Source of the DNA: a virus
IMG/VR virus record: IMGVR_UViG_3300019888_000012
Span: 1-36,704 of that record
Direction: 5' to 3' (one strand)
DNA length: 36,704 bases
The notes below the pieces were generated by a model. That model ran no database searches, had not been told where the DNA came from, and worked only from the letters and a program-made list of their open reading frames with translations. Each line of letters opens with the position of its first letter. The stretch's first letter is position 1. Of the stretch, positions 2,538 to 36,704 are shown piece after piece. The position numbers were made by a program, and so were the translations under genes.

Positions 2538-3073
2538 TGGAGCTTGATAACTCGAAAAAGAATCAAGAGAATGCTAAACGATGGGGAGGAAGGCGTATCA
2601 ATTCTGGCCGTCCCTTGCATAGCAAAAACCCTGCTACCATAGAGCGTGAAGAGGCAGCGCGTTTATTCAAGGAGCGGGTAGCAAAAAATGCGGATAAGCT
2701 ATTCAATGCTCAGTTATCTCTTGCAACCGGAATGCAGATGTTATTTGTGATCCATACCGATTCTAAAGGTAAAAGACGTAAGCCAGAGATTGTAACAGAT
2801 GTAGATACCATCTCACGTTTTCTCGATGAGAATGAAGGAACCGATGGCATAATGGAAATGAAAGCCCATGCAAATGACTCAAAGGTGGAGGATTACTTTT
2901 TCCTAACTACATCAGCCCCGAACAATCAGGCGCTAGAGGGACTACTTAATCGCTCATTTGGTAAAGCAGAAGAAAAGGTTGATTTATCTAATAAAGACGG
3001 TTCATTGAACCAAGTCCATGATATATCTGATGAGGAGTTGAATGAAAGAATTAACCGTATCCTCAAGGTCTGA
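2537..3073 (+). CDS. terS: terminase small subunit (putative)
   Basis: This 178-aa protein lies directly upstream of, and overlaps, the large terminase gene, the usual place for the DNA-recognition subunit of the packaging motor. The N-terminus is basic (KRWGGRRINSGRPLHSKN), then long helical segments follow, with a segment near residue 130 (NQALEGLLNRSFGKAEEK) of a kind often seen in phage small terminases and related DNA-binding proteins. The C-terminal helix (DISDEELNERINRILKV) could be the contact with the large subunit. The call rests on position plus composition; no catalytic motif exists to confirm it. Translation probably begins on a leaderless transcript. Confidence 0.6.
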   Translation: MELDNSKKNQENAKRWGGRRINSGRPLHSKNPATIEREEAARLFKERVAKNADKLFNAQLSLATGMQMLFVIHTDSKGKRRKPEIVTDVDTISRFLDENEGTDGIMEMKAHANDSKVEDYFFLTTSAPNNQALEGLLNRSFGKAEEKVDLSNKDGSLNQVHDISDEELNERINRILKV

Positions 3074-4670
3074 ACTTATTGAATTGTTGGATGAAGCTGA
3101 TCGTCGAAGGGCGGCTAAGGATTGCGTGTTTTTCATCGAGCATTATCTAAAGACCTTTGATCCTCGTCCCGAGGCATATCCCCACCATCTTGACTTTATT
3201 CTTTATGACTTTCAAAAAGATTATGTAAACGGGTTAGTTGAGGCTATCCGAACCGGACACGATGTGTTTGATGAGAAGTCTAGAGACATGGGAGCATCAT
3301 GGCTTGCACTTGCAGTACGATTTTGGTTCTGGTCATTTGACGAGGGCTACCAATGTTTGGTAGGTTCGCGTAAGGAAGAGTATGTCGATGACAATACGCT
3401 CGCCTCACTATTTGGTAAAATGGATTACTTTATAGATAACATAAAAGATCCCCTGCTACTACCAAATGGGTTTGACAAGAAGAAACATCGGACGTATATG
3501 AAGCTAACTAATCCGGCAAATGGTAATGTCGTAAAAGGTGAATCATCCAATAAAAACTTTAGTCGTGGTGGACGCTATAAAGATGTACTATTTGATGAGT
3601 TGGGTTTTTGGCCTGATGCAAGAGCCTCATGGACTGCCGCCGGTGATGCTACACGTTGCCGTCATGCGGTCACAACCCCACCAGATCAACCGTCATTCTC
3701 CAAGGTATTGAGGTTTAGTGGGAAGATTAAAGTACGTACATGGCACTGGCGATTACATCCACATAAAGGTGACAAATGGTATGAATATGAAAAGAAACGT
3801 CGTAGCGAGGAAGAGGTATTACATGAATTGGACATATCATGGGAGTATTCATCGACCGGACGACCCTATCCAGAGATCACCAAAGTGCCATTTCAGCAGA
3901 TTGAGTATGAAGAAGGATTACCATTGTACGTGTCTATCGACCTTGGGCTAGATGCCGTGGCTTTAGGCTACTGGCAGCCGGTTAAGAACAGTGAGTGGAT
4001 AGCCCTGCTTGACGCTCACGAAGAAACTGACCACATTATTGAGTGGTACTTTCCATTCTTTGGATTAGAGGATTGTATCAACGTCCCAGAGTGTCCGTGG
4101 TGTGGTAAAGAACATAACTTTGATTACAACGAGAAACAACTAGACTTTATGCGGAAGGTAAACAAGTGGCGTAAGGATATATTCTTTGGCGATCCGTCAG
4201 GTAAGCAACGGCATATTGAATCGGGTGTTAGCCCGTACTCTATCCTTGAGGAACATGGTGTTGACGTGCAAGTTAACGATCAAGAAAATGACTGGATTCA
4301 TCGAAGAGACGCGACCCGTCGTCTATTCACACACTTGACCGTGAATGACACCGAGGGGACACGTTGGTGGGCTGAAGCAATTAAAAACGCTCATTATCCT
4401 AAACGTGAAGAAACGAGCCAAGCCGTCACGCCGATCACTAAACCCGTGCATGACTGGACATCCCATCATCGGACACAGACTGAGTTCTTTGCTGTAAACT
4501 ACAAAGGGGAATATGACCTAGGATCTAAGTTTATTGAACCGAACCTCCCTGAAGCGAATAAGGCTAAAGTCGAGTGGCGAGGTAATGAAGATGGTACGAT
4601 TGAGGGGACAGGATTAGACATACAAAAACTATTGAGTGGTCATCAAGACCGGGATTGGAGAAGCATGTAA
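3042..4670 (+). CDS. terL: terminase large subunit (packaging ATPase and nuclease)
   Basis: 542 aa, the length usual for the family. The ATPase half has a Walker A-like SRDMGASW at residues 80-87 and Walker B DVLFDE at 181-186, with the catalytic Glu at its end. The nuclease half has Asp300 in YVSIDLG and Asp384 in FFGDPSG, matching the RNase H-like acidic residues of phage terminases. A CPWC pair near residue 351 may be part of a small metal knuckle. The protein would drive DNA into proheads through the portal encoded downstream and cut concatemers. The ATG at 3042 has GAGGAG upstream and overlaps the small-subunit gene by 32 nt. Confidence 0.93.
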   Translation: MKELTVSSRSELIELLDEADRRRAAKDCVFFIEHYLKTFDPRPEAYPHHLDFILYDFQKDYVNGLVEAIRTGHDVFDEKSRDMGASWLALAVRFWFWSFDEGYQCLVGSRKEEYVDDNTLASLFGKMDYFIDNIKDPLLLPNGFDKKKHRTYMKLTNPANGNVVKGESSNKNFSRGGRYKDVLFDELGFWPDARASWTAAGDATRCRHAVTTPPDQPSFSKVLRFSGKIKVRTWHWRLHPHKGDKWYEYEKKRRSEEEVLHELDISWEYSSTGRPYPEITKVPFQQIEYEEGLPLYVSIDLGLDAVALGYWQPVKNSEWIALLDAHEETDHIIEWYFPFFGLEDCINVPECPWCGKEHNFDYNEKQLDFMRKVNKWRKDIFFGDPSGKQRHIESGVSPYSILEEHGVDVQVNDQENDWIHRRDATRRLFTHLTVNDTEGTRWWAEAIKNAHYPKREETSQAVTPITKPVHDWTSHHRTQTEFFAVNYKGEYDLGSKFIEPNLPEANKAKVEWRGNEDGTIEGTGLDIQKLLSGHQDRDWRSM

Positions 4671-25110: not shown

Positions 25111-26640
25111 CTACTCCTTGTCTGGGTCAGGCAATGCGGCACTCGCCGTAATAAGACCCCTTACTAATGCAACAGCGTTGGTGACAACTTCCGATATGAC
25201 CAGTGATGGATCAATAACACCTTCTTGTAGCATGCCTACAGGCTTATCAGTGATGTTACGAAGATTGAAACCGAACCATGCGTCAACACCGTCTAAACGT
25301 GCTAGATATGATTCAGGGTTCAGACCAGCGTTATCAAATAATGCCTTAAACGGTTGGGTAAATGCCTCATCAAATTCGGTACCCTTTACTCTAGCAAGCG
25401 TTGAGCCACCACCAGGTAAAATACCGTCTTTCATCGCAGACTGAACGGCACATACAGCATCCTGAACTCTTAACTTAACTTCTTCACGTTCAAACTCGAT
25501 TGCACCGCCGACACGGATAATGGCCATTTTGCCTGTCAAACGGGCTAATCTATCTTTAATGAATTGGATAGATTGTGGATGTTCTTCGTCTTTAAGTTGA
25601 TCTTTGAGCCCTTTAATGCGTTCGGTGACTAGCTCTTTTTCGCTATCACCATCAATAATCGTGGTGGAGTGTTCGGTCACCAAAACTTCTTTTGCAAATC
25701 CTAAATGTTCTTCGATTGAGAAATTAACCCCGTCATATACTTTAGCGCCTGTTTTAATGGCAACATCATCTAAGAACAAAGTACGGCCGCCAACTGTATA
25801 GGGAGGGTCAACAGGAACAGCAAGTAATAGGCCTTTAGCACGTGTCATAATCAAAGTCTCTAAGGCGGCATTGTTTACTTCACCAATAATAATTAGTTCT
25901 TTATATCCAGCACGTACCACGTCGTTAATTACTGGTGCCAGTTCCACTTCCGTATTAAAGACTTTATTCGAGATAAGAATGGCCACGTCGGTATGTAGGG
26001 ACTGGTTAGAGGACTGGTCATTGATAAGAGCAGTATCCTTATAGCCACGGTTAAAATAAAAACCATCGACGATCTCATTATGTACACCTAATCCTTCGTA
26101 CTGTTCGATTACTACTCCGCCATCCACACCAACTTCCTGCAGGATATCAGCAATCATCGCGCCCAGTTCTGGATCGCCAGCTGACACTGTGGCGACTTTT
26201 TGCAAATGTTCATCGGTAGATTTTAGTTTAATCGAATTGATATACTCTAAAGCAACCGTTTCAGCTTCACGAAGTTTCTCAGCGACAGCCATAGGATTGA
26301 CACCTTTGCTTTCTAATTTACGGGCAGCTTTTAACAGGTGGTGGGATAAGATAACAACAGCAGTCGTTCCATCACCGACCTTTTGGTTATTCTTTTCGGA
26401 TGCCGACACGATGACTTTCGCTATATCGTCTTCTACTGGGTCAGGTAGGCGCAGTCGTTTAATATTTGTTACGCCGTCCCTAGATAGTAAAGGCGCACCG
26501 CTTTTAAAACCAATAATAACATTGCCCGCTTTCGGGCCATAGGCTGCCTTTGCGACCGCATAAACCTGATCACTAGCGTTAGCTATTTTCTCTTGGAGTA
26601 TGTCCCTATCGGTTATGACGTCAGTCGCTTTTATCGTCAT
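25111..26640 (-). CDS. groL: GroEL-type chaperonin
   Basis: Chaperonins fold substrate proteins inside a double ring capped by GroES. The sequence has the ATPase motif GDGTTAVVIL near residue 90, the catalytic-Asp region VQDAV and the GILPGGGSTL nucleotide-binding segment near residue 395, and an apical domain with GVVIEQYEGLGVHNEIVDGF. At about 509 residues it is somewhat shorter than bacterial GroEL (about 548). It lacks the C-terminal Gly-Gly-Met tail and ends AALPDPDKE. I chose ATG 26640 (MTIKATDV), the typical N-terminus; 26655 is also in frame. Phage chaperonins presumably serve folding of capsid or tail proteins. Confidence 0.93.
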   Translation of the reverse strand: MTIKATDVITDRDILQEKIANASDQVYAVAKAAYGPKAGNVIIGFKSGAPLLSRDGVTNIKRLRLPDPVEDDIAKVIVSASEKNNQKVGDGTTAVVILSHHLLKAARKLESKGVNPMAVAEKLREAETVALEYINSIKLKSTDEHLQKVATVSAGDPELGAMIADILQEVGVDGGVVIEQYEGLGVHNEIVDGFYFNRGYKDTALINDQSSNQSLHTDVAILISNKVFNTEVELAPVINDVVRAGYKELIIIGEVNNAALETLIMTRAKGLLLAVPVDPPYTVGGRTLFLDDVAIKTGAKVYDGVNFSIEEHLGFAKEVLVTEHSTTIIDGDSEKELVTERIKGLKDQLKDEEHPQSIQFIKDRLARLTGKMAIIRVGGAIEFEREEVKLRVQDAVCAVQSAMKDGILPGGGSTLARVKGTEFDEAFTQPFKALFDNAGLNPESYLARLDGVDAWFGFNLRNITDKPVGMLQEGVIDPSLVISEVVTNAVALVRGLITASAALPDPDKE

Positions 26641-26914
26641 CGTATGAAGTCCCATCTATATCATTTATTGGTATTAACGCTAATTTTTCGCCCGTTGGTA
26701 AGGTTACTACACGGAGTTCATCTTTGTAATCCTTAAAATATCCGATACGTCCGACTAGATATCCCCACTCTTTTCTATCAATAGGGTTTACCTCTATAAT
26801 TTCACCTTCGTTAACAGTGTCATACGTTTTTTCGGGCACAGGAACAGCACCGTACTTAGATACTCCAAGTTTTACCAGAACACGTCCCTTTTCGGGTTCG
26901 ATGATTCTTTGCAT
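26621..26914 (-). CDS. groS: GroES-type co-chaperonin
   Basis: 97 aa, the size of GroES, directly upstream of groL and overlapping it. The start RIIEPEKGRVLVK and the segments EGEIIEVNP and GEKLALIPINDIDG match the beta-barrel of the family. The mobile loop region (SKYGAVPVPEKTYD) differs from the usual Ile-Val-Leu tripeptide, as might be expected for a partner matched to the phage GroEL. An acidic tail (GTSYDDDKSD) extends the C-terminus. The ATG at 26914 is preferred over 26923, because the latter overlaps the -10 box. Confidence 0.88.
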   Translation of the reverse strand: MQRIIEPEKGRVLVKLGVSKYGAVPVPEKTYDTVNEGEIIEVNPIDRKEWGYLVGRIGYFKDYKDELRVVTLPTGEKLALIPINDIDGTSYDDDKSD

Positions 26915-33630: not shown

Positions 33631-33969
33631 ATGAAAGACAATATCAAACGACCAATACTACACGGAGAAAATGCAATCGTTCCTATCGAAAAAATGCCAG
33701 AGGGTAAAACTAAGCGCTATACAAAATATATCGTTGGACATTCAGAAACGGGGCACCACCACGTCCTCGAAGCCGTCAGAGGCCAAGAGTTCGATATACT
33801 TGTGCAAGATGGTGAAATCTACTTCACTAATACCTTTGAGGCCAAAGTCACACATAAGAAACTGCACGACATTCACGAAACTAAGGTAGTTGCTCCTGGT
33901 ATCTATAAGGTTAGTCGTAAACTCGAATACGACCCTTTCACGAAGGTGCGAAGGGCTGTGTTTGACTGA
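33631..33969 (+). CDS. His-rich small protein paired with repeat protein, 112 aa
   Basis: The central segment GHSETGHHHVLEA has four His residues and is followed by strands (DILVQDGEIYFTNTF), then HKKLHDIHETKVVAPGIYKV and an EYDPFTK end. From memory, short proteins of this pattern often lie beside genes for DUF6745-like proteins, and the same pairing is seen here, one base apart. The His cluster could bind metal. The function is unknown. Confidence 0.55.
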   Translation: MKDNIKRPILHGENAIVPIEKMPEGKTKRYTKYIVGHSETGHHHVLEAVRGQEFDILVQDGEIYFTNTFEAKVTHKKLHDIHETKVVAPGIYKVSRKLEYDPFTKVRRAVFD

Positions 33970-33970
33970 T

Positions 33971-35224
33971 ATGGCTACTCTCAAGAAACTAGAAAAATTG
34001 ACACCAGAACAAGAGTCTTTGATGATTGTCACAAAAGACAAATGGATCACTGATTGTCTGACGGGTGGTGATGAGGTCAATGAAACTGATGCTAGAAATG
34101 GTATTGAATGGATGTATGAGTTAGCAGATTTGAAAAAACCAATAGTCATCTTTGTGGATAGCCCTTTGGCTGTACAATACGCTGCTAATATCCTTTATAA
34201 TGAGGGTGCTATTAAGCAAGTGCACTCCCAAGTGTACTCCCAAGTGGACTCCCAAGTGCACTCCCAAGTGTACTCCCAAGTGGACTCCCAAGTGTACTCC
34301 CAAGTGCACTCCCAAGTGTACTCCCAAGTGGACTCCCAAGTGGACTCCCAAGTGGACTCCCAAGTGCGCTCCCAAGTGCACTCCCAAGTGTACTCCCAAG
34401 TGTACTCCCAAGTGGACTCCCAAGTGCACTCCCAAGTGCACTCCCAAGTGTACTCCCAAGTGGACTCCCAAGTGGACTCCCAAGTGCGCTCCCAAGAATT
34501 AAAAGTATTTCCTGTCGCTTATAACGTTGGTGGATGGTATTCAGGTTGGGGTGCGTACCTTGATTTTTACGCACAAATCGGCATTGCAAAACACAAGGAT
34601 TTGAAAATATATCTTGATTACCTACGAAGTGGCGTATTTTACGGTAATTTCCTCGATAATGTTGCGATCGTTTGCCGACGACCTAGCGGAGTTAGACGCG
34701 ACGTAGGACATAATCTTGATTCTGACCAACTCCCAGCCATTGAGTGGCGTGACGGCTATAAATTATGGTTCTTGCATGGTGTTTCATTTGAAGAGCCAGT
34801 ATGGAAAAAGATTGTCAGCCAAAAGCTAACTTTGCCAGAACTAGCCAAGATGGATTTAGGGGCCGATCAGCGAGCGGTGGCGATCCAGATGTTACGAGCT
34901 GACAGGTTACTCGAACAGATGAAGGCCAAGGAAATAGCTACAGGCAAGAAGTACGGCAAACTCTTAGAGCAATTCGGTGAAGATCAATGCGCCGAGTATT
35001 TCCCATTCAGTCTGAATGAACCCACAGTACTTTACCAGGTGGATAATTTCATGGACACTGGAGAGACGGAATACTGCATGAAAATGGAACATCCAAGTAT
35101 TAAAGGTAAGTACTACATTGAGTGGATCGAACCAGAAATAGGTAAGAAGAAAGACGCTGATCTTTGCCAAGCTCATGCTTTTGGGATGTCAGTAGAATCA
35201 TATTTAATAGCTGTTGAAGCTTAG
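33971..35224 (+). CDS. DUF6745-like protein with 23 tetrapeptide repeats
   Basis: 417 aa from ATG 33971, which follows the previous stop by one base. The N-terminal 80 residues ([40 protein letters not shown]) and the C-terminal 240 residues ([20 protein letters not shown]) resemble DUF6745 proteins, from memory. Between them, 23 units of Val-X-Ser-Gln occur (X is His, Tyr, Asp or Arg), at 34220-34495. In the family I recall a related Ser-Gln-Leu-rich segment here, but this array is unusually regular. Function unknown. Confidence 0.6.
34220..34495 (+). repeat. 23 tandem copies of a 12-bp repeat inside a gene
   Basis: Consensus GTGNACTCCCAA, coding Val-X-Ser-Gln. Variation is nearly limited to the first base (C, T or G) of the X codon, plus CGC in two copies. 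The other bases are identical in all copies, including silent positions, so the array is young or homogenised. Every reading frame on both strands stays largely open through it, which creates spurious frames. Confidence 0.95.
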
Positions 35225-35749
35225 ATGACTATCCGGTCAAACCCTTGCAAGCTGTGTGGTTCCGTATACCACACAGCTGCATTTTGCCAGAAAAGACCAA
35301 AGAAGTATCCCAAGCCCCGACCAGTTAAGAAAGTAACAAGACGCCCAACCGTTAGCCGAAAAAAGATTGTCAAAGACTTCGACGCCATTTTCTCAAGATA
35401 CATACGGCTCCGAAATGCCTTTGAACTAAATGGCGAACTAGTCGCTAAATGCGTTACCTGTGGGGATATAAAATCATGGAAGCAACTACAGAACGGCCAC
35501 TACTATTCACGGGGCAGGTACCCGACCCGGTGGGATGAAGATAATTGTCACGTTCAATGCGTCGTCTGTAACCTCTATCGTAAAGGGAACTATATAAAGT
35601 ATACCCTTTTCATGATTGACACTTACGGGCGGGATTTCGTAGATGAACTTGGCATGAAGTCAGTCAATCCAGCAAAGATTAGCACCGTGGATTTAAAGGG
35701 TAAAATCGATGAATATACGAGAAAAGTAAAGATTCTTCTTGACAAATAG
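35225..35749 (+). CDS. NinG-like recombination protein with Cys-rich zinc sites
   Basis: 174 aa. It has CKLCG near residue 9, a basic linker (KYPKPRPVKKVTRRPTVSRK), then CVTCG, NGHYYSRGRYPTRWDEDNCH and CVVCNLYRKGN. This order of Cys pairs plus a His-Tyr-Ser-Arg-Gly segment matches NinG/Rap, a structure-specific nuclease of lambdoid phages that cuts recombination intermediates. It follows the DUF6745-like gene directly. Its end contains the -35 box of the next promoter. Confidence 0.8.
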   Translation: MTIRSNPCKLCGSVYHTAAFCQKRPKKYPKPRPVKKVTRRPTVSRKKIVKDFDAIFSRYIRLRNAFELNGELVAKCVTCGDIKSWKQLQNGHYYSRGRYPTRWDEDNCHVQCVVCNLYRKGNYIKYTLFMIDTYGRDFVDELGMKSVNPAKISTVDLKGKIDEYTRKVKILLDK

Positions 35750-35799
35750 CACACGCTTATGGTAAGCTTGATTCAGATCCAAATAGAAGGGATCACAAG
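35739..35799 (+). promoter_or_regulatory. second promoter with the 17-bp operator-like site and 20-mer
   Basis: TTGACA (35739-35744), an 18-nt spacer, TGG-TAAGCT (-10 at 35763-35768). TAGCACACGCTTATGGT (35747-35763) is the exact reverse complement of the site at 31027-31043. CAAATAGAAGGGATCACAAG follows at 35780-35799. No start codon follows the 20-mer here, unlike at 31063. Confidence 0.65.
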
Positions 35800-35809
35800 C
35801 AACTAACAA

Positions 35810-35920
35810 TTCGGCAGCTCCTACCTGGACGATCAAACTAGTAGAATGTGCAATCCATTCCAAGACTCGATAAGCTAAGAGTCGAAATAGCTTCAAGGTG
35901 TCTGGGTAAAAGCTGCCGAA
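35810..35920 (+). ncRNA. candidate pseudoknotted structured RNA in a 5' leader
   Basis: A 10-bp closing stem TTCGGCAGCT (35810-35819) / AGCTGCCGAA (35911-35920) stacks across a CC/AA internal loop on a 9-bp stem TACCTGGAC (35822-35830) / GTCTGGGTA (35900-35908). Inside are a hairpin GAATG/CATTC (35844-35860) and a hairpin GACTC/GAGTC (35864-35883). The loop of the second hairpin (AAGCTA 35872-35877) can pair with TAGCTT (35888-35893), giving a pseudoknot. It lies just before the ribosome site GAGGAG of the next gene, so it may be a cis-acting leader or a processed RNA. Confidence 0.6.
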
Positions 35921-35940
35921 CAAACAGAGGAGACACTAGA

Positions 35941-36129
35941 ATGTCAACAGGAAAAGGCAAGATCAATTGGGAAAAAGTAAAGACAATCACTATCACGGCG
36001 TTTATCTTTACAATAGCAGGATTAATCGGTGGCTATTTCGCTAGCATTAATCTTCACAGTGACGCACGACAATCAGTCATCAGCGATATGAGCGTCGTGA
36101 CCAAGTTAAGCCCAAAATCAAGCAAGTAG
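35941..36129 (+). CDS. membrane peptide, zero-frame product of a frameshift gene, 62 aa
   Basis: ATG at 35941 follows GAGGAG. The peptide has one membrane segment (TITITAFIFTIAGLIGGYFA) flanked by a basic cytoplasmic N-terminus (STGKGKINWEKVK), then a polar tail. It stops at TAG 36127-36129, inside the frameshift stem. It would be the main product if ribosomes do not shift. The next frame (-1) supplies a lysozyme-like domain. Confidence 0.75.
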   Translation: MSTGKGKINWEKVKTITITAFIFTIAGLIGGYFASINLHSDARQSVISDMSVVTKLSPKSSK

Positions 36130-36530
36130 ATACGCCCGTTGCCCTCAAAACGCAATCAGACGTATCTACGCAAGCTACAGACCATATTGCTGACAGTAGC
36201 AAAATGGTTTCAGCACCTACACAATGCGACCTAGTACGACGAGAAGCCTCAAAATACGATTGGGATGTCAACACAATGGTCGCCATAGCACAAGCAGAAA
36301 GTCACTGCCGCATCGACGCGACTGGTGATACCTCGCTGATATACGAACAGAATGGGCGAACTTATGGCTACTCTGTATCGGTATTTCAGGTGAGGATATT
36401 ACCGGGACGCGAAAAATGCGATAGTCACGATCTAGCAACAAACGTCAGCTGCGCCTACAGGATATACAAATCACAAGGCTTAATCGCGTGGAGTGTATAC
36501 TTGAATAATAAATATAAGGAGTTCTTATGA
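35941..36530 (+). CDS. frameshift fusion: membrane-anchored lytic transglycosylase-like protein, about 196 aa
   Basis: If ribosomes slip by -1 at CCCAAAA (36111-36117), residue 60 onward continues in the overlapping frame to TGA 36528-36530. The distal part has a lysozyme fold signature: Glu120 in AIAQAESHCRIDATGD, then GYSVSVFQVRILPG, as in soluble transglycosylases that cut glycan strands. Four cysteines suggest disulfides, so action outside the cytoplasm. The distal frame opens at 36063 with no start codon or ribosome site until ATG 36204, itself lacking a ribosome site. Fusion is therefore the likely route to this domain. Confidence 0.75.
36111..36169 (+). promoter_or_regulatory. programmed -1 ribosomal frameshift signal
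   Basis: C-CCA-AAA is a canonical X-XXY-YYZ heptamer in the zero frame (36111-36117). After an 8-nt spacer, GTAGATACG (36126-36134) pairs perfectly with CGTATCTAC (36161-36169). The 26-nt loop can form an inner TTGC/GCAA stem. The zero-frame stop UAG lies within the stem. Confidence 0.82.
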
Positions 36531-36658
36531 AAGATACCATCCTTTTAGAACCCACCAATCTACTCGCCGACTGGGCGCTGGACTACTCAATCTTTAGTCT
36601 AAGATACTCAGTTTGGACAAACCGTGAGGAAATTTGGCGTAAGTTTATACGATCATAA
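36527..36658 (+). CDS. hypothetical protein, 43 aa
   Basis: Coupled to the lysozyme stop by ATGA, with AAGGAG about 5 nt upstream of the ATG. It is Trp-rich (LADWALDYSIFSLRYSVWTN) and amphipathic. Function unknown. It ends 2 nt before the terminator, so it completes this transcription unit. Confidence 0.6.
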   Translation: MKDTILLEPTNLLADWALDYSIFSLRYSVWTNREEIWRKFIRS

Positions 36659-36660
36659 GC

Positions 36661-36693
36661 AAAATTGCGGCCCATGCGAGAGGCCGCAATTTT
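36661..36693. terminator. intrinsic terminator, usable in both directions
   Basis: AAAATTGCGGCC (36661-36672) pairs perfectly with GGCCGCAATTTT (36682-36693) over a 9-nt loop. The A- and T-runs within the stem make it potentially functional for either strand. It ends the lysozyme unit at the right side of the window. Confidence 0.85.
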
Positions 36694-36704
36694 AGTTAAA
36701 AAGT

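Follow-up and report, generated by a model that had tools for sequence, protein, structure and literature searches.

A structured, apparently exchangeable RNA element ahead of the lysis genes of an uncultured tailed phage

Between a NinG-type gene (35225-35749) and the lysis genes of a tailed phage lies a stretch of about 111 nucleotides that is predicted to fold tightly, and the question raised by this locus is whether that fold controls the genes behind it or is an RNA in its own right. The window analyzed here is the whole of the IMG/VR virus record IMGVR_UViG_3300019888_000012 (36,704 nt), which encodes a large terminase, an SU10-type portal, NinG and a GroEL-like protein; the RNA element at 35810-35920 is called E1. 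The large terminase (TerL) belongs to PHROG 5989, its Pfam Terminase_6N match being below cut-off, and its relatives were found in one patescibacterial MAG (30%) and in Vampirovibrio (38-45%). The SLT_3 lysozyme domain is present in 3 of 59 genomes from the phylum of that MAG. PADLOC returned weak matches only, which were uninformative. Elsewhere in the window are a DUF6745 protein (33890-35224) in which V(D/Y/H)SQ repeats form a long tract and, on the minus strand, the phage-encoded GroEL-like chaperonin (25111-26655). The features around E1 are the following:

35739-35768, + strand: putative promoter, TTGACA (35739-35744), 18-nt spacer, weak TAAGCT (35763-35768)
35776-35794, + strand: 5′ leader hairpin GATCC-AAATAGAAG-GGATC (from the sequence and similar hairpins in relatives)
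35802-35809, + strand: unstructured A-rich linker ACTAACAA, upstream of stem P1 of E1
35926-35932, + strand: Shine-Dalgarno-like AGAGGAG, 8 nt before the ATG at 35941 (from the sequence)
35941-36129, + strand: small membrane-anchor (TM) ORF, 62 aa (from the translation)
36111-36117, + strand: canonical slippery heptamer C_CCA_AAA, in frame and before the stop at 36127 (by eye)
36132-36530, + strand: lysozyme-like domain (SLT_3) in the -1 frame (Pfam 33.3 bits, cut-off 27)
36656-36698, + strand: inverted repeat, possible terminator, 3′ of the lysis genes (inverted-repeat listing, I5)

The order of NinG, promoter, leader hairpin, anchor and lysozyme is also seen in the related phages L002, L018 (IMG/VR 3300013427_000007, the record to which L060 and L087 also belong) and L088, with extra elements in between in L018 and with the contig ending inside the anchor gene in L088; in L049 an HNH gene occupies the place of NinG. 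The initial annotation had called the promoter a good one. Its -35 box is perfect and its position is kept in relatives, but the -10 box is poor and the site is missing from the list of the consensus promoter scan. TTGACA promoters follow NinG or HNH at the equivalent place in L018, L088 and L049, and TTGTAG was found there by eye in L002; support for the window promoter is therefore of a weaker, positional kind. Hairpins similar to the leader hairpin lie 3′ of the promoter in L018, L088 and L049, and by eye in L002. Near L018 4208 and L017 331 the same kind of sequence is a plain ribosome-binding site with its ATG (AAAGGG...ATG), and the hairpin of the window is probably a leftover or an ordinary ribosome-binding stretch. 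A TAACAA-type linker precedes most of the related elements; L088 has TTACACA instead. The TM ORF had no Pfam or PHROG match, and the repeat at 36656-36698 was not called by the terminator scan.

An anchor ORF followed by a -1 frame was observed in the window (35941-36530), L002 (5051-5592), L049 (1280-1839) and L018 (3409-3971), the second frame being lysozyme-like in three of these phages and unassigned but lytic-like in L018. L049 has a canonical slippery heptamer, A_AAT_TTA, at 1450-1456, and no ATG, GTG or TTG lies near the overlap of anchor and lysozyme in 3 of the 4 phages. This looks like a conserved programmed -1 frameshift that would yield an anchored lysozyme.

The predicted fold of E1 consists of the following parts, RNA1 being its homologue in L018:

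35810-35920, + strand: structured RNA element E1, a stalk of P1, internal loop, P2 and P3 around two hairpins (folding z, covariation, CM R1)
35810-35819 with 35911-35920, + strand: P1, 10 bp (covariation with L018 RNA1)
35822-35830 with 35900-35908, + strand: P2, 9 bp (covariation with L018 RNA1)
35833-35834 with 35897-35898, + strand: P3, 2 bp beyond an unpaired A (kept in L018)
35844-35860, + strand: P4 hairpin GAATG-TGCAATC-CATTC, 5 bp (35844-35848/35856-35860) and a 7-nt loop (counterpart in L018)
35864-35883, + strand: P5 hairpin GACTC...GAGTC (35864-35868/35879-35883; MFE)
35872-35877, + strand: pseudoknot strand AAGCTA, complementary to 35888-35893
35888-35893, + strand: pseudoknot strand TAGCTT, complementary to 35872-35877

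Positions 35800-35930 have a predicted folding energy of -40.7 kcal/mol, whereas their shuffled versions averaged -25.2 (z -4.71); none of 200 shuffles folded as well, and an independent shuffle of the exact 111 nt of E1 gave z -4.79. The outer arms (35810-35830 and 35900-35920) are the longest inverted repeat listed for the 36.7 kb window; P1 and P2 are separated by a 2x2 internal loop, and the stalk, 19-20 bp in total, closes a junction. The structured RNA of about 111 nt that had been read from the letters is thus genuine, by these z values and by its covariation with RNA1, and the two long stems around a two-hairpin junction had been placed at the right coordinates. The closing stem had also been put 6 nt before the ribosome site; it is indeed close, at a distance of 5 nt from the end of P1 to AGAGGAG. 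The statement that the region has no reading frame was not exact, as E1 is crossed by two minus-strand ORFs and by a version of the TM frame that is extended to a GTG start (35848-36129), although none of these looks like a gene. RNA folding of the whole locus was set aside, since it mostly returned coding stretches.

RNA1 (L018 2796-2895) lies between NinG and another ORF, and the first clue to it was a weak 28-bp blastn match. When E1 and RNA1 were aligned with MAFFT, 48 of 48 cells were paired over 24 shared pairs, 9 of which had changed on both sides and 3 on one, in a comparison that is based on two distinct sequences because the L088 copy is identical to that of L018. The slid-structure controls had 29.5-39.6% of cells paired and one double change each. 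Within P1, 4 of the 9 shared pairs counted differ on both sides, and the outermost pair, which lies outside the counted alignment, is also a double change (U-A to A-U). Helix 2 (P2 and P3) has 10 shared pairs, of which 4 differ in both bases and 3 in a single base, and P3 is retained in L018 (U-G/C-G and C-G). The P4 counterpart, GTATG-TGAAATC-CATAC, has one pair changed on both sides and keeps the 5 bp and the 7-nt loop, while P5 is replaced by a shorter GCC-TAGTC-GGC hairpin. The unpaired core is kept (the UGNAAUC loop, CCAAG after P4 and UCAAGG before P3′) while the sequences of P1 and P2 have changed, which is a signature of selection on the RNA. The compensatory changes in relatives that had been suggested as a check on the fold are therefore present, and the P1-internal loop-P2 stalk by which we define the proposed cassette shows covariation.

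The same comparison bears on the 6-bp pseudoknot of the initial annotation. Its complementarity in the window holds, but the knot is absent from L018 RNA1, and also from L002 E5, and it is not conserved; judged from sequence, the putative pseudoknot is a property of the window copy and not of the family. When the 68-nt interior of E1 was shuffled 3000 times, an H-type knot with stems of 5 and 6 bp arose 4 times, a figure that is post hoc because the region was chosen for the knot.

In eight IMG/VR scans, homologues of E1 were found in two other contigs only, L018 and L088, with one distinct sequence between them. The CM R1 matched with E about 1e-22 in L060 and L088, where L060 is already included in the model and the L088 copy is identical to it. 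R1 found no further copy in 40 sources, and neither the 379 genomes searched from a single phylum nor the Aeromonas loci contained one; its best further match (L079/L034, 18.5 bits, E 0.45) was not accepted because of its weak fold. A gapped core pattern was found in 50 stretches, with the P1 stem only in L087 and L088, and the exact 5′ stem pattern of E1 had no match in IMG/VR. The blastn searches of the window RNA against phages and plasmids gave one 30-base noise match or none. The loci of SLT relatives that were inspected, the L002 contig apart, had tail or lysin genes without the RNA, and a genome scan using SLT was empty. The search of RNA families that had been proposed placed E1 in no Rfam family: release 15 gave 0 matches at gathering for the whole window, the only match at E<=10 was a 16.5-bit snoRNA match on the opposite strand, the ribozyme families known in Rfam did not match the window, and scans of the relatives' stretches gave nothing useful. 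Open PMC text yielded no paper on these RNAs, which only weakly indicates that none exists.

The two copies outside the window show how these RNAs may move. L018 2795-2897 and L088 6716-6818 are identical at 103 of 103 bases, and the identical run overhangs P1 by 1 base on the 5′ side and 2 bases on the 3′ side. The two contigs bear different sample numbers. The 5′ flanks of the two copies do not match, and the 3′ flank of L088 is 79% identical over about 200 bases to the stretch that follows a different RNA in L018. With a per-base identity of 79%, the chance of 103 straight matches would be about 2e-11. The simplest reading of these sequences is that the RNA was exchanged recently and that the breakpoints lay where the stem ends, and the right flank would be explained if one of the two phages lost or gained the sequence that separates RNA1 from the anchor gene. 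Transfer of a unit bounded by P1 was thus seen for RNA1 in L018 and L088, and was not seen for the window copy.

We therefore favor, with a probability of about 0.5, the view that E1 is an exchangeable cassette for a noncoding RNA at the start of the lysis transcript, an RNA that most likely works as its own molecule because its relatives were inherited and exchanged whole. The conserved unpaired core, the changeable stems and the movement as a unit are in keeping with an independently functioning RNA. The lysis transcript would start at the promoter after the NinG gene and run through the RNA, the membrane anchor and the frameshifted lysozyme. The RNA would be a self-contained domain of about 111 nt, with a two-helix stalk, a junction, a T-arm-shaped hairpin and a variable hairpin, and the stalk of about 20 bp would hold this domain shut. 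RNase III substrates are of about this size, so the stalk is a plausible RNase III site, and release by such cutting is proposed. Once free, the RNA would act in trans by binding to a partner, either protein or RNA, from the host or the phage. Transcription, release and action in trans are all steps that we infer.

The main competitor of a free RNA is a cis-acting leader of the lysis operon that affects mRNA stability, translation start or elongation, for example by antitermination of the HK022 put type at the position of lambda pR′. We regard such a leader as less probable. In its favor, no strongly structured stretch lies between the promoter and the E1-type RNA in the window, L018 and L088, and the distance from the homologue or related RNA to the TM start is 20 nt in the window, 23 nt in L002 and 43 nt in L088; in the window, such a place in the leader is what one would expect of a cis element. 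The order of NinG, promoter and lysis genes also resembles the lambda late region, where the late leader (6S RNA at pR′) occupies the same position as E1, after a ninG-type gene and ahead of the lysis genes. E1 differs from it in being exchangeable and in having stalked RNAs elsewhere as well, and no leader terminator was found at the E1 locus. The HK022 put RNAs (PMC9378689) act 3′ of a promoter, at the start of early operons, as E1 would in the lysis operon, but they are about 70 nt long and consist of two side-by-side stem-loops, compared with 111 nt and a single long stalk with a junction for E1.

The position of the RNA among relatives argues against a cis-acting role. The TM gene directly follows the RNA in the window and L088, and a related RNA is found there in L002, but the L018 copy precedes a different ORF and a second RNA and lies 513 nt before the TM gene. 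L049 has the same promoter-TM-lysozyme module with a weak leader fold (z -1.13) and no RNA ahead of the TM gene; its RNAs are found after the lysozyme instead. The Shine-Dalgarno sequence is unpaired in the predicted folds, both in the 35800-35930 fold, which ends at 35930, and in a longer stretch, and there is no U-run after P1. CUCCU (35818-35822) could pair with AGGAG only if P1 melts, and by eye it is absent from L018 and L002. A lysozyme switch in cis fits less well because the gene behind the RNA changes in L018 and because L049 lacks a strong leader fold. Control of lysozyme translation by the closing stem, which had been the first suggestion for this RNA, is thus not supported, and the free RNA that had been offered as its alternative fits better because the RNA moves as a unit.

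E1 is not the only RNA of this shape, as related phages contain further RNAs of 88-254 nt on a two-helix stalk, some with a common stalk and a different interior. In L018, RNA1 is followed by E3, in which a P1/P2 stalk surrounds an 87-aa ORF (2910-3240) without a Pfam match, and then by E4 (120 nt). L002 has three elements (93, 254 and 131 nt), L049 has two after the lysozyme, L070 has one beside a real tRNA-Phe, and G006 and G007 have several. The z values of 13 of the 14 elements, E1 and E2 included, were between -2.8 and -7.9, which is not independent proof since the tested elements were chosen for their closing stems; candidate E16 was dropped because it does not fold. In a census of 20 records, 17 two-helix stalks were counted outside ORFs where 3.2 were expected; not all of the 17 are independent, as G006 and G007 share sequence. 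At a score of 36 or more there were 14 against 1.4 expected, and with a stricter ORF mask and score 8 against 0.4. The one-strand census missed L018 RNA1, the loop of which closes by G-U on the other strand. E12, E13 and E14 have P1 in common and differ in their interiors, and E3 and E10, from two phages, have a common stalk around different cargo (an ORF and a short hairpin, respectively), a scan for this stalk finding only those two. From these patterns, stalk and cargo seem able to vary separately.

Two further observations were made on these RNAs. L063, L065 (G007) and L061 (G006) carry RNAs with the common P1 GATTGAGTGTA and different interiors near NinG/HNH genes, and part of the stalk of these RNAs resembles the stalk of L002 E5. 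The 254-nt element of L002 (5964-6217) is structured (z -4.0), lies after the lysis genes, and had no Rfam match at E<=10 and no phage blastn match.

The hairpin P4 raises another explanation, that E1 is derived from a tRNA, with P4 as the T arm and the decoding part lost, and perhaps serves as a decoy that sequesters tRNA-binding or tRNA-cutting proteins. We consider this origin unlikely. P4 has the T-arm geometry of 5 bp and a 7-nt loop, but its loop TGCAATC departs from the T-arm consensus TTCRANY, and E1 lacks the D arm and the decoding arm of phage tRNAs and tRNA-like RNAs; in the 8 pieces scanned, the P4 hairpin shape was confined to the window, L060 and L088. The best phage-database match of RNA1 falls on the T-arm side of a tRNA-Gln-like gene of Aeromonas phages LAh_6, LAh_8 and LAh_9, but it had E = 0.9, the same level as clearly unrelated ones, and 74 of 500 shuffles were as good when the window RNA was compared with that gene. 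A further point is E4 (L018 3244-3363), a neighbor of RNA1, which ARAGORN calls as tRNA-Ala in intron mode. E4 has D, T and acceptor parts on an extended stalk, an abnormal anticodon arm and a perfect T arm, one of only 4 in 1.18 Mb of strand. For E1 and E2, ARAGORN found no tRNA either in linear or in circularly doubled form, and the tRNA CM had no match at E <= 10 in the window, L018, L002 and L049 stretches. A permuted tRNA was also considered, and circular doubling of the elements revealed none. The tRNA-Gln-like gene itself (L222 1926-2041 in LAh_9; also in LAh_6 and LAh_8) is unannotated, has a 41-nt insert in the anticodon loop, and is called by the tRNA CM (47.7 bits) and by ARAGORN in intron mode.

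The exact boundaries, the common stalks with different cargo and the TTAACAA on both flanks of E3 could also be expected of a palindromic DNA cassette, whose stalk would serve as a recombination site or terminal inverted repeat and whose RNA fold would be a by-product. This is very improbable. A recognized repeat should keep its sequence, yet P1/P2 of the window and L018 differ in both arms around a similar interior; no consistent target duplication was seen by eye at other elements, no recombinase gene was found among the neighbors looked at, and the elements adjoining lysis genes are on the gene strand.

A wider proposal, which is tentative, extends the free-RNA reading of E1 to the other stalked elements. 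It supposes a family of uncultured tailed phages with arrays of modular noncoding RNAs, each with its stalk set in unstructured A-rich linkers and carrying interchangeable cargo (pseudoknotted hairpins, tRNA-like bodies and once a small ORF), stalk and cargo recombining separately between phages. The cargos would be phage-made effector RNAs, such as decoys or inhibitors directed at enzymes of host defense or translation, and a double-strand-specific RNase would free them from a polycistronic transcript.

The phi29 pRNA, also a phage RNA, is likewise branched, is similar in size and has loop pairing, and the initial annotation had seen a likeness to it in outline. That likeness is unsupported because E1 has no match in Rfam, which includes a pRNA family, and because the large terminase is of another type; the remark that the packaging genes are not of the phi29 type was correct, TerL being the PHROG 5989 terminase large subunit. 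GOLLD and ROOL, according to PMC12286853, are structured noncoding RNAs of phages and prophages that are often located near tRNA islands; GOLLD rises during lysis, and many GOLLD RNAs exceed 800 nt. E1 is likewise a phage-encoded structured noncoding RNA, but GOLLD and ROOL are far larger and of other sequence, while E1 is about 100 nt, stalked and of a unit-exchanged kind, and has no Rfam match. Structured phage RNAs near tRNAs are thus already known, and what sets E1 apart is that it is small, stalked and exchanged as a unit.

To our knowledge, few families of structured phage RNAs have been described, and few of these have a known job. A compact RNA that covaries, moves as an intact cassette and has sister RNAs in related phages would make phage RNA effectors a testable class, in which each cargo could be excised, expressed and screened. 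The locus is also a warning that a structured phage leader is not always a switch for the next gene.
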